Both the position numbers and the translations under genes were made by a program. The notes beneath the pieces were generated by a model that was not told where the DNA came from, did no database searches, and saw nothing but the letters and a program-made list of their open reading frames with translations. Source: Eubacteriaceae bacterium (GTDB lineage Bacteria > Bacillota > Clostridia > Eubacteriales > Eubacteriaceae). From it: a DNA stretch of 42,423 nucleotides. Below, one piece after another: positions 17,468-34,628 of the stretch; positions within the stretch are counted from its first letter, which is position 1; each line of letters begins with the position of its first letter. The stretch spans positions 1 to 42,423 of the forward strand of contig JAENWK010000010.1 of the NCBI GenBank assembly GCA_016650045.1, in the 5' to 3' direction.

Positions 17468-17989
17468 TTATTTCTGTTGTCTTAAAACCTTAATATAATC
17501 CTTCATGTACTCAGGCAAATCTGGGGGACGGCGACTGGAAACAATGTGGCCATCAATAATGGACGGGGTATCATGCCAGATTGCTCCTGCATTGGTCATA
17601 TCATCCCTAATTCCAGGGGTGCTGGTAACATGAATGCCTTTAAGAATGCCTGCTGAAATCAGAACCCAACCAGCATGACAAATCTCTCCAATGACACGTT
17701 TACGGGTGTTCATATTGCGAACCATGTCAAGTACCACCGGGAAACGTCTTAACGCATCCGGAGCCCAACCTCCCGGGACCAATAACCCATCATAGTCATC
17801 AGGGTTAATGTCAGTGAAGGCAAAATCAGAAATACAGGGAACCCCATATTTTCCAATATATTTTTTTCCAGCTTCTTCTCCGACAATATGAATGGTAATG
17901 CCTTCTTCACGCAGGCGAAGAACAGGATACCATAATTCAAGATCTTCAAAATCATTACTGATCAGTGCGATTATCTTTGTATTTTTCAT
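17468..17989 (-). CDS. DJ-1/PfpI family protein
   Basis: The 173-residue protein belongs to the DJ-1/PfpI superfamily of glutamine-amidotransferase-like folds. The nucleophile elbow GEICHAG places the reactive Cys at 104 followed by H105. E15 in NDFEDLE is the conserved acidic partner, and LVPGGWAPD is the usual glycine-rich loop. Members act as glyoxalases, deglycase-like proteins, chaperones or proteases; which applies here is unclear. ACAGGAGG precedes the ATG. It is separated from pyrE by a palindromic repeat element and is probably a single-gene unit. Confidence 0.88.
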   Translation of the reverse strand: MKNTKIIALISNDFEDLELWYPVLRLREEGITIHIVGEEAGKKYIGKYGVPCISDFAFTDINPDDYDGLLVPGGWAPDALRRFPVVLDMVRNMNTRKRVIGEICHAGWVLISAGILKGIHVTSTPGIRDDMTNAGAIWHDTPSIIDGHIVSSRRPPDLPEYMKDYIKVLRQQK

Positions 17990-18045
17990 TATTTTTTCCT
18001 CCTGTTAATTAAAATTCATCTAGCATAGCAAAACGGATACTCCTC

Positions 18046-18143
18046 GCTGTCTGCTTATACTAAACAATTTTTCCACTCTACGTCGGACACTCTACGAGAT
18101 GTCCGCCTAAGACGTTACTAAATTGTTTGTATAAGCAGACAAC
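18046..18143. repeat. Palindromic repeat element, copy 1
   Basis: This 98-bp element has terminal inverted repeats CTGTCTGCTTATAC / GTATAAGCAGAC continuing into AAACAATTT / AAATTGTTT. The conserved centre holds CCACTCTACGTCGGACA and GTCCGCCTAAGACGTTAC, which form an inner stem. A second copy lies at 33854-33950. Two pairs in the outer stem differ in a compensating way (C-G here, T-A in the other copy), so the base-paired structure appears to be conserved. It sits between pyrE and the DJ-1 gene. No open frame is inside. Confidence 0.85.
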
Positions 18144-18191
18144 AAGGTAACAAGGGTACAATAACTCTTCAAAAATCGTTAAACTAAACTT

Positions 18192-18767
18192 TTAAGCGTT
18201 TCCTCTTGAGCCTGGCTTTACAACTGCAATTTTTCCGGCTTTGCATATTGGGCATTCATCAGGTTCCCATGCGGTAATTTCAAGCTTAATCGCCGCATAA
18301 ATCGGCATGTTAATTTCAACACCGGCCGCACGTCGATCGGCAATACAGGCAACCCCTAATACTTCAGCCCCCATTGCTTCCAATACTTTCTTTGTTTCAA
18401 TGGTGGATTTTCCAGTCGTTACAACATCTTCGGTAATAATTACTTTTTCTCCGGGTTTAATTTCAAAACCTCGGCGCAACTCCATTTCCCCATCTTTTCT
18501 TTCGGTGAAAATAGATTCTTTTCCTAATTGACGACCAATTTCATAGGATACAATGACACCACCCATGGCTGGACCAACCACCTTGTCAATTTCCAAGGCT
18601 TTTAATTGCTCAACCACTGGAGCCAGTACCTTCGCTGCTTCATCAGGAAAACGCAATACCTTTGCACACTGTACATATTGGTCGCTGTGTTTCCCGGAGG
18701 ATAGTAAAAAATGTCCTTCTAAAAAGGCATCGGTTGATTTTAATACGTCTAATACTTGCTTACTCAT
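18192..18767 (-). CDS. pyrE: Orotate phosphoribosyltransferase
   Basis: PyrE joins orotate and phosphoribosyl pyrophosphate to form orotidine 5'-phosphate. The 191-residue protein contains the PRPP-binding motif [14 protein letters not shown] near residue 115 and [13 protein letters not shown] in the N-terminal part. A C-terminal CPICKAG follows and is common in clostridial PyrE. The start at 18767 (MSKQVLD) is preceded by GAGG; the frame could extend four codons upstream. It is the last gene of the pyr operon, 32 bases after pyrD. Confidence 0.95.
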
Positions 18768-18799
18768 ACCATTCCTCATTTCGTATTTTATTTAATTGG

Positions 18800-32184: not shown

Positions 32185-33248
32185 TGAAAAGCCTAGTAAG
32201 AGAAAATATAAAAAATCTCAATGCCTATAAAGTTGATGCCCCTCAATATGAAATCATCGTTAATGCCAATGAAAGCCCCTATGACTTTCCCATGATTTTA
32301 AAACGACAATTTTGCGATGAAATATGCAATACCGATTTAAACCGCTACCCTGAGGCTTGTTTTCCAGAATTATTAAAGGAGCTCAGTGATTATACCGGTG
32401 TTCCTGAGGAAGGCATTATTTGCGGATCTGGATCCGATGAGGTCATTGCCATGATCAATCAGTCTTTTGTCAATGCCGGGGATGTTATTGTTTCACATTC
32501 TCCCTCATTTGCAATGTATGATATTTGGGCAACCATTTCAGATGCCAGACATATTCGTGTTGAAGATTTGCCAGAACACCTGCCGGACATTGATACCATG
32601 ATCAGTAAAGCCTGTGAAAACAATGCCAAGCTAGTCTATTTATGTAACCCCAACAACCCTACCGGCCATACTTTTTCAAGAGAAGATATTCTGAAAATAT
32701 TGGATGCTGTTCCTTCCCTGGTCATTTTGGATGAAGCCTATATTGAATTTTTCGGTGAATCCGGAGTCGATTTACTGACACAGTATCCAAAACTATTAAT
32801 TCTGAGAACTCTGTCTAAGGCTTTTGGCCTAGCTGGAATACGATGTGGTTATGCCCTTGGAAATAAAGAAATCATTGATATTCTCTACAAAGTCAAAGGA
32901 CCTTATAATCTCAATGTTCTCACCCAGAAGCTGGCGGTGATTGCGCTTAAAAATCGGGCGAGTATTTTACGCAATCTTGAAATAGTAAAAGCTGAACGAG
33001 AAAAGGCCATGGCTTTTCTCGAAGAACTCAATGCTTTTAAGATTTATCCTTCAGGTTCGAATTTCATTTATTTTGAATCCCCCCAGGCTGAAGAAATCTA
33101 TGAAGCGCTTTTAAAAAACAATATCCTCATCAAATATTTTAAAGAGGTTGATCGACAACCTGGAAGCATTCGTTTTTCCCTGGGCAAACCACAGGACAAC
33201 CAAAAGATTCTGGCAATTATAAAGGAGGTCGTATACAATGGAGCGTAA
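32184..33248 (+). CDS. hisC: Histidinol-phosphate aminotransferase
   Basis: HisC is a class I/II PLP aminotransferase converting imidazole acetol phosphate to histidinol phosphate. The 354-residue protein has ANESPYDFP near residue 28, CGSGSDEVI, YLCNPNNPTGH, LDEAYIEF and the Schiff-base Lys in RTLSKAFGLAGIRCGY. Its ATG overlaps the hisD stop by one base. Confidence 0.95.
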   Translation: MKSLVRENIKNLNAYKVDAPQYEIIVNANESPYDFPMILKRQFCDEICNTDLNRYPEACFPELLKELSDYTGVPEEGIICGSGSDEVIAMINQSFVNAGDVIVSHSPSFAMYDIWATISDARHIRVEDLPEHLPDIDTMISKACENNAKLVYLCNPNNPTGHTFSREDILKILDAVPSLVILDEAYIEFFGESGVDLLTQYPKLLILRTLSKAFGLAGIRCGYALGNKEIIDILYKVKGPYNLNVLTQKLAVIALKNRASILRNLEIVKAEREKAMAFLEELNAFKIYPSGSNFIYFESPQAEEIYEALLKNNILIKYFKEVDRQPGSIRFSLGKPQDNQKILAIIKEVVYNGA

Positions 33249-33825
33249 AGTAACCCTCAGCCGAACCACCGCTGAAACGGATATCCAATTATCTCTAAAC
33301 CTCGACGGGTCGGGACAGTGTAATGTGACTACCGAGGTGGGATTTTTAGATCATATGCTCACACTTTTCACGAAACACAGCGGTTTTGATTTAACCGTTA
33401 AAGCCACTGGAGACACCGCCGATAATCACCACGCCATAGAAGATATCGGAATCGTTCTCGGCAAAGCTTTTTATGAAGCCCTGGGAGATAAAGCAGGCAT
33501 TAACCGCTATGCTTTTCAGTTTACTCCCATGGATGAAGCCCTTTGTCGGGTCTGTGTGGATATCAGTGGCCGAAGCACTTTGGTTTATGATGTTTCGCTC
33601 ACCCGTGAATTCATTGGGGATTTTGAAACCGAAATGTTGGAAGAGTTTTTTATTGCCTTTGCCAGCAACAGTAAAATGACCCTTCACGTGGCTTCCCTTT
33701 ATGGCACTAACAACCATCATATTGTGGAAGGAATCTTTAAATCTTTTGGGAGAACTCTGAAGGAAGCCTGTGCCATTAATCCCGATAATAAAAACATTCC
33801 TTCAACTAAAGGAATAATAGAATAA
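33238..33825 (+). CDS. hisB: Imidazoleglycerol-phosphate dehydratase
   Basis: HisB dehydrates IGP using manganese sites. At 195 residues it is the single-function type, without the phosphatase domain of enteric HisB. The metal motifs are GFLDHMLTLFTKH, DNHHAIEDIGI and NNHHIVEGIFK. It overlaps hisC by eleven bases with AAAGGAGG upstream. After it the operon is interrupted by a palindromic element. Confidence 0.96.
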   Translation: MERKVTLSRTTAETDIQLSLNLDGSGQCNVTTEVGFLDHMLTLFTKHSGFDLTVKATGDTADNHHAIEDIGIVLGKAFYEALGDKAGINRYAFQFTPMDEALCRVCVDISGRSTLVYDVSLTREFIGDFETEMLEEFFIAFASNSKMTLHVASLYGTNNHHIVEGIFKSFGRTLKEACAINPDNKNIPSTKGIIE

Positions 33826-33853
33826 AAAAATTGCAAAAGTAAGCTGATCCTCA

Positions 33854-33950
33854 CTGTCTGTTTATATGAAACAATTTTTCCACTCTACGTCGGACAGTTC
33901 TTTGAACTGTTCGCCTAAGACGTTACACAATTGTTTATATAAACAGACAG
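33854..33950. repeat. Palindromic repeat element, copy 2
   Basis: This 97-bp copy of the element at 18046 lies inside the his operon between hisB and hisH. The outer stem is CTGTCTGTTTATAT / ATATAAACAGACAG, the inner stem ACAGTTC / GAACTGT. The conserved blocks AACAATTTTTCCACTCTACG and CGCCTAAGACGTTAC are the same as in copy 1. There is no T-run, so it is not a classical terminator. RNA folding could affect stability or expression of the downstream his genes. Confidence 0.85.
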
Positions 33951-34019
33951 CAAGGGCTAAAGGTTATGTGTTTATATATTTTACAATTATTTATAATAAA
34001 ACAATAAGGAGGAACGCTT

Positions 34020-34628
34020 TTGATTGCAATTGTCGACTATGATGTTGGAAATTTAAAAAATGTCTATACTACTCTGGGTGATGTTGGCTTAGAAGGTGTT
34101 ATTACCCGTGATAAGAAAGTTCTGGATAATGCCGACGCCATTATCCTCCCTGGGGTCGGTGCTTTTTCCGATGCCATGGAAAACCTGAGAAAATACGATC
34201 TCATCGATTCCCTGGAATCCAATATAAAAAAAGGCAAAACACTTTTGGGAATTTGTCTTGGTATGCAGCTATTATTTGATAAAAGCTATGAAGATGGTGA
34301 ATTCCAGGGTCTTGGCTATATACCCGGTGAAATTGTCAAGTTTTCCGCCCCGGGACTTAAAATCCCCCATATGGGTTGGAATAATCTTATCATCAACAGG
34401 GACAGTCCCTTAGTTCATAATATTGGCAGTGAGGATTATGTTTATTTTGTTCATTCCTATTATGCCAATCCTGAAAATTTTGATGATGTCGTTGCCTATG
34501 CGGATTACAGCGTTAAAGTACCTGGCATCGTTCAACGGGATAATGTTATCGGTATGCAATTTCATCCTGAAAAAAGCTCAAATGTTGGGCTTCAATTATT
34601 AAAAAACATTAAGGAGATTTTATCATGA
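34020..34628 (+). CDS. hisH: Imidazole glycerol phosphate synthase, glutaminase subunit
   Basis: HisH releases ammonia from glutamine for HisF. The 202-residue protein has IVDYDVGNLKNV at the start, the oxyanion region ILPGVGAF, the nucleophile elbow GICLGMQLLF with the catalytic Cys, and MQFHPEKSS with the His/Glu of the triad. The start is TTG seven bases after AAGGAGG. It is the first gene after the repeat element. Confidence 0.95.
   Translation: MIAIVDYDVGNLKNVYTTLGDVGLEGVITRDKKVLDNADAIILPGVGAFSDAMENLRKYDLIDSLESNIKKGKTLLGICLGMQLLFDKSYEDGEFQGLGYIPGEIVKFSAPGLKIPHMGWNNLIINRDSPLVHNIGSEDYVYFVHSYYANPENFDDVVAYADYSVKVPGIVQRDNVIGMQFHPEKSSNVGLQLLKNIKEILS

Follow-up and report, generated by a model that had tools for sequence, protein, structure and literature searches.

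The window analysed here, a stretch of 42,423 nucleotides from a Eubacteriaceae genome, carries two copies of a palindromic repeat, one in the spacer between pyrE and a DJ-1/PfpI family gene (copy 1) and the other in the spacer between hisB and hisH (copy 2). We named the conserved strand of the repeat F; in each copy it corresponds to the minus strand. The genes and the parts of each copy are arranged as follows.

17468-17989, minus strand: DJ-1/PfpI family gene, downstream of copy 1 in the pyrE reading direction
18015-18188, minus strand: copy 1, whole element aligned to a 175-position profile, inverted ends decayed
18032-18158, minus strand: copy 1, conserved core (hairpin and its flanks)
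18046-18072, no strand: copy 1, outer stem, one arm (the left arm of the initial annotation)
18073-18118, no strand: copy 1, inner bulged helix and apical hairpin, CCACTC...CGTTAC
18119-18142, no strand: copy 1, outer stem, second arm
18192-18779, minus strand: pyrE, adjoining copy 1
33238-33825, plus strand: hisB, adjoining copy 2
33820-33995, minus strand: copy 2, whole element, with inverted ends that have decayed but can still be recognised, TAAATAATTGTAAAA and TTTTGCAATTTTTTT
33839-33966, minus strand: copy 2, conserved core
33880-33926, no strand: copy 2, inner bulged helix and apical hairpin
34020-34628, plus strand: hisH, adjoining copy 2

The initial annotation had described palindromes of 98 bp (18046-18143) and 97 bp (33854-33950), and both lie where it placed them; the blocks CCACTCTACGTCGGAC and CGCCTAAGACGTTAC that the two were said to share match letter for letter. 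Block CCACTCTACGTCGGAC occurs twice against 0.04 occurrences expected by chance, a count reached in none of 100 shuffles, while CGCCTAAGACGTTAC alone is weaker, with 3 of 100 shuffles reaching two. The two outer-stem changes from C-G to T-A (GCTTATAC/GTATAAGC against GTTTATAT/ATATAAAC) are real, as is the difference in the inner stem, which still pairs in each copy. Both copies fold strongly on each strand (z of -8.5 to -9.6, with none of 200 shuffles equally stable), and the window holds no match to a described RNA family at the Rfam gathering threshold. The extent of the feature required revision: the palindrome is present, but alignment of the copies with their flanks places it in the interior of a longer unit of about 172 bp, with recognisable ends at approximately 18015-18188 for copy 1 and 33820-33995 for copy 2. 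The inverted ends of copy 1 retain 8 of 15 matches each, close to the 7.6 or so expected by chance.

The repeat extends far beyond these two copies. An exact pattern found five copies in the window's genome and one in G008 among 101 genomes searched, the single named match being Acetobacterium bakii DSM 8239. A covariance model built from six copies, a search of the kind that the initial annotation had proposed, gave matches at E ≤ 0.01 in 17 of 19 Acetobacterium genomes, 14 of them strong, and no match in any of the 48 genomes from the rest of the order; with stricter filters, 16 of 67 genomes of the order match, and all 16 are Acetobacterium. Best matches are weak in G002 (8.1e-6), G011 (1.0e-3) and G015 (3.5e-7) and may be something else; these top matches (L026, L027 and L025, respectively) were left out of the strong members, and L026 reads as a different palindromic family. 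Row counts from the model run too high because palindromes match on both strands, and the 44 rows at E ≤ 1 in the window's genome reduce, when read through, to some 23 places with E ≤ 0.01 and three weaker ones. In the 1.6 Mb of G009 that was read, there are 71 non-overlapping profile matches, 56 of them full-length. The element is thus a short, non-coding, multi-copy unit of 172 bp, as a MITE should be, and with hundreds of copies that retain their pairing, the family is neither confined to the two window copies nor made up of further copies that no longer fold. A phage or plasmid origin was rejected, copy 1 having no blastn match in either collection, and one exact core pattern searched in viral contigs gave no match. 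As a separate observation, the hisB-hisH spacer of G008 (L245) contains a short bare palindrome, CTGTCGGTTGATATCAACCGACAG, which resembles the outer stem of the window subfamily minus its centre and adjoins another element copy containing a run of N.

The ends of the element consist of the 15-bp TAGGTAATTGCGAAA and its reverse complement and are best preserved in G009, where 223 such ends occur at no more than one mismatch against two for a reversed control pattern, giving these copies the terminal inverted repeats of a MITE. They also have its target-site duplications: direct repeats of 9-12 bp (mode 11) stand beside 47 of the 56 full-length copies and are absent from nine, against a mean of 0.5 and a maximum of 3 in 200 trials with mispaired flanks. 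No duplication is visible in the two old window copies. Short derivatives that retain the ends and have lost the hairpin also occur, several with a duplication visible by eye (one of 66 bp at 388629 and one of 70 bp at 319675 among them), and the hairpin is therefore dispensable for insertion. The ends seemed to cluster by strand midway along the G009 chromosome; this proved to be an artefact, since minus-strand matches occur there too. Empty sites exist for both window copies. The pyrE-side copy was found in 1 of 19 genomes, and the corresponding spacer, 202 bp long in the window, measures 49 bp in A. bakii; element matches lie in or around the hisB-hisH spacer in 6 of 19 loci, and in several loci without the element this spacer is about 14-15 bp by eye, or 22 if counted from an earlier GAATAA.

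Across 67 genomes of the order, the end pattern occurs in 16 Acetobacterium genomes and in one other, G047, from another family, which has the 15-bp end at six places close to contig ends (C13, C16, C43, C52, C75 and C97) and where we looked for a relative of the transposase described below and found none. Next to the end pattern lies an insertion sequence of 1750-1761 bp in five relatives, G012 (two copies), G016, G003, G015 and G014. It carries the same ends and the same duplication length as the 172-bp element, so that the matching transposase sought by the initial annotation exists and the family shares its ends with an autonomous element, as MITEs do. Duplications of 11-12 bp flank eight of the ten copies laid out, the exceptions being a G003 copy that starts at a contig end and a G015 copy without a duplication. 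The transposase has 489-499 amino acids, with DUF772 above the Pfam cut-off in all three proteins examined and DDE_Tnp_1 above its own cut-off in one of them. Its closest NCBIfam model is IS1182 (NF033551), matched over the C-terminal part at 61 bits against a cut-off of 270, which falls outside that family as modelled; the insertion sequence would be a divergent IS1182 branch or belong to a neighbouring family.

In a protein search, relatives of this transposase at E ≤ 1e-20 occur in 12 of 67 genomes, full-length in the same five and as broken remnants in G009, with none found in G000. No intact relative was found in the window's genome or in the copy-rich G005, G008 and G010, and the link between insertion sequence and element therefore rests on ends and duplications. 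At the left end, 21 of 24 positions agree between the two; at the right end, only 13-14 of 24 agree beyond the shared first bases. Taken together, ends and duplications identify the insertion sequence with the DUF772/IS1182-like transposase as the likely mobiliser in trans, whose action on the element we infer. Other origins and other partners were considered and discarded. The core scores against the interior of the insertion sequence within the range of its shuffles, which speaks against the MITE as an internal deletion; PF01609 transposases in general yielded 30 kept loci, none with a pair of ends; and the ends were missing from the multi-copy DNA of the 1.6-Mb portion of G009 that was read. 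It was only the end pattern that led to the partner. G014 contains at least ten near-identical insertion sequences and no copy of the hairpin repeat; at one locus there (L211, G014:C1:1018694 onwards), three insertion sequences stand in tandem at an exact spacing of 1761 bp, which corresponds to 1750 bp plus a single 11-bp TTTAATTTTAA between copies.

The copies lie preferentially between genes, as the initial annotation had asked to be checked. With genes called in G009 by a simple ORF caller, 44 of 56 copies are intergenic (ORF overlap below 20%) against 8.5% of random placements. Where the genes on both sides run in one direction (43 copies), the element stops 13-31 bp short of the following start in 25 cases and overlaps it in two others. 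These 43 copies show no orientation bias, strand F having the direction of the genes in 23 and the opposite one in 20, so that the fixed strand of a functional structured RNA is not seen. Insertion sites are largely not common to different species. In one case, L035 (G001) and L038 (G003), the element occupies the same spacer in opposite orientations, reflecting either separate insertions or an inversion.

Compensating changes are general in the family. We aligned 137 copies, leaving out matches cut by a locus end, matches not spanning model positions 45-150 and those more than 10 off a length of 175; composite copies are under-represented because of these exclusions. The G009 copies are unselected and were found by sequence profile, whereas those from elsewhere are the best-scoring matches of each genome and not a random sample, and since the model includes structure, pairing figures outside G009 lean towards good model matches. 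Subject to that leaning, 96.7% of outer-stem cells are paired in the 79 copies outside G009; sliding the partner by 1-3 columns lowers the figure to 34-48%. Taken one genome at a time, G000, G008, G016, G005 and G010 all have more outer-stem pairing than any of their 200 shuffles, and 15-30 both-sided changes compare with 2-19 broken cells. The young G009 copies do not surpass all of their shuffles in the outer stem (2 both-sided changes, 63 half changes and 27 broken), and the ends of the element pair at the level of shuffles, apart from a slight excess in the pooled set. Shuffles and slides rule out chance pairing; the covariation goes beyond chance and is compatible with selection as well as with hairpin correction. 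At one pair, the inner helix is G-C, A-T or C-G largely by genome, with G008 mixed, and the conserved bulges and a mismatched loop persist in the hairpin.

The interior of the element is a separate core of about 127 nt, its fold a single long hairpin with bulges. The outer stem is still 95.9% paired in the 28 copies whose ends, taken together, retain at most 18 of 30 matches (chance about 15). Across 60 old copies, the mean majority fraction is 0.87 for the paired core, 0.79 for the unpaired core, 0.77 for the right single-strand flank, 0.63 for the left and 0.50-0.54 for the ends. Three of six pairs of copies in the same spacer have a core identity of 0.87-0.90 against 0.38-0.58 at the ends; the other three, at 0.63-0.73 in the core and 0.38-0.50 at the ends, may be separate insertions. 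Since insertion needs working ends, the constraint on copies with dead ends and a live core must have acted once they were in place, through selection or through a correcting process. There is clear evidence that the folded core outlives the mobility of the element, and something constrains it once it has landed. Single mismatches in the core of strand F are more often G-U than A-C (93 against 43 cells, 55 against 33 distinct cases, with nine systematically odd pairs left out), an excess that the ends lack (153 against 182), and this weakly suggests that strand F itself folds. Counted over all core pairs in the mRNA sense of the surrounding genes, there is no G-U excess (145 G-U against 138 A-C), and the mismatch bias thus gives no evidence for a role of the core in host mRNA.

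Given these results, we consider it very probable that both window repeats are old copies of one Acetobacterium MITE family, moved in trans by a transposase, with core and pairing kept. The initial annotation had left the choice between a MITE-like family and selection for a folded RNA or cruciform. The first is supported by the ends, target duplications, empty sites and matching transposase; of the second, the conserved fold stands, through compensation and a core that outlives the ends, in a form compatible with RNA or DNA and with selection or correction. We propose that the IS1182-like (DUF772) transposase of the 1.75-kb insertion sequence would have recognised the TAGGTAATTGCGAAA ends and transposed the 172-bp unit into AT-rich intergenic DNA, in many cases immediately before a ribosome-binding site, creating a target duplication of about 11 bp. 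Ends and duplications would then have decayed, with core and pairing retained through compensatory changes. Selection for a folded transcript or DNA hairpin may have kept the core, beyond what hairpin-templated repair or conversion between copies would achieve, and the element may modulate the operons that contain it. Several points sit uneasily with this reading, namely the missing intact transposase relative in the window's genome and in several copy-rich ones, the limited right-end agreement, the insertion sequences of G014 without the repeat, the nine full-length copies without a duplication, the scarce compensation in young G009 copies, the hairpin-less insertions and the three same-spacer pairs with low core identity.

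The strongest competitor, which we regard as a serious prospect somewhat short of probable, is a MITE without host function in which hairpin-templated replication errors or inter-copy conversion, not selection, restored the pairing. Copies that lie in either orientation, show no G-U excess in the mRNA sense and can dispense with the hairpin are what it predicts, and the uniformity of the inner helix within species could be the product of conversion. It accounts poorly for the conservation of unpaired core and flanks in old copies (0.79, 0.77 and 0.63 against 0.50-0.54 at the ends), for bulges and a mismatched loop that have stayed uncorrected, and for changes in young G009 copies that mostly remain so.

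A succession of source elements, each spreading with its own paired stems, which would make the compensated differences original to the copies, appears rather unlikely. One genome does contain both CTTAGGCG copies of the window subfamily and TATAGGCG copies, and some same-spacer copies, one pair of them in opposite orientation, look like separate insertions; stems differ almost copy by copy, however, and this explanation fails on the conserved core beside decayed ends within single copies. More doubtful again is a core that acts in cis as a host RNA, such as an attenuator or a processing or stability element, selected in each operon. The strong fold on either strand, the 25 of 43 co-directional copies just before a start and the persistence of the core beyond the ends would suit such a role, and transcripts of related MITEs are processed or alter decay according to PMC10969869; the even split of strand F (23 with genes, 20 against), the balanced mRNA-sense mismatches, the missing Rfam match in the window and the sites largely unshared between species all count against it. 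A REP-like or integron-like element moved as a single-stranded hairpin by an HUH or tyrosine recombinase is highly improbable, for although many intergenic copies with imperfect hairpins and conserved mismatches recall such systems, the element has 172 bp, inverted ends common to a DDE-type insertion sequence and target duplications of about 11 bp, and loss of the hairpin does not stop insertion. Within the MITE reading that we prefer, a bolder version can be offered only tentatively: the 127-nt core would be a genuine structured genetic part, foreign in sequence to the IS1182-like transposon between whose ends it was captured; it would have spread through the genus and would now be held by selection at many intergenic sites where those ends are dead, with an inner helix that shifts by lineage (G-C, A-T or C-G at one pair) as if tracking a trans-acting partner.

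A second repeat unit, containing GGGCAGTCGCCAACTACAAGC, occurs in 18 of 19 genomes, with up to 53 matches in G001 (examples are G001:C1:125142-125332 and G001:C24:137084-137271, and loci L337, L340, L357 and L334). It is found inside either arm of the hairpin, alone in tandem at a spacing of 85 bp, and inside a different palindromic family. Variation in the number of second units at one locus takes only the form of absence against presence (G005 against G018 and G010). Another palindromic repeat, GTACCGA...CAATTGTTAATC...GGTAC, is present in at least three genomes (L026, L236 after pyrE in G007, and L335) and once hosts the second unit nested within it.

Acetobacterium is a main model for acetogenesis, and one of its genomes would hold about 140 strong intergenic hairpins, scaled from 56 in 1.6 of 4.04 Mb. 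Such hairpins, often no more than 31 bp from a start codon, would affect operon maps, the reading of RNA-seq data and strain engineering. Within the family, copies range from young ones whose ends are intact to old ones of which only the core is left, and this gradation allows a copy-by-copy test of whether folded MITEs gain a host function. We found no description of this Acetobacterium family in the openly licensed literature, and an earlier description elsewhere is possible. The kind of element is known (a MITE; compare ERIC, Correia, BOX and bcr1), and what is new is this family, its candidate transposase and its modular architecture. Among known repeats, bcr1 shows compensatory folding, ERIC is a 127-bp near-palindrome, Correia/NEMIS elements duplicate a TA target, and REP/BIME palindromes have neither inverted ends nor target duplications. 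REP palindromes measure 20-40 bp (PMC3733652), and the present element, with 172 bp, inverted ends and duplications of about 11 bp, is of a different kind. ERIC resembles it as an intergenic palindromic repeat with a conserved centre (PMC10969869), whereas an autonomous partner with matching ends was found for the Acetobacterium element. Correia/NEMIS of Neisseria, according to the same source, are MITEs with inverted ends beside genes and foldable transcripts, which RNase III cleaves; they differ in ends, size and target duplication. The bcr1-bcr18 repeats of the Bacillus cereus group are likewise MITE-like, folded and intergenic, lying in UTRs and within operons (PMC3446304), and differ in host group, sequence and ends. 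The partner transposase has its best model in the IS1182 family (NF033551), far below the cut-off. A likeness in architecture, by description, may be seen in BOX of Streptococcus pneumoniae (with RUP and SPRITE), whose many small intergenic folded repeats are modular, with a unit that can be tandem, nested elements and ends that have been compared with an insertion sequence (PMC3049150). The second unit in hairpin arms and in tandem recalls these BOX elements, whereas the Acetobacterium element has one bulged hairpin core, a second unit at 85-bp spacing and, in its young copies, clear target duplications of about 11 bp.
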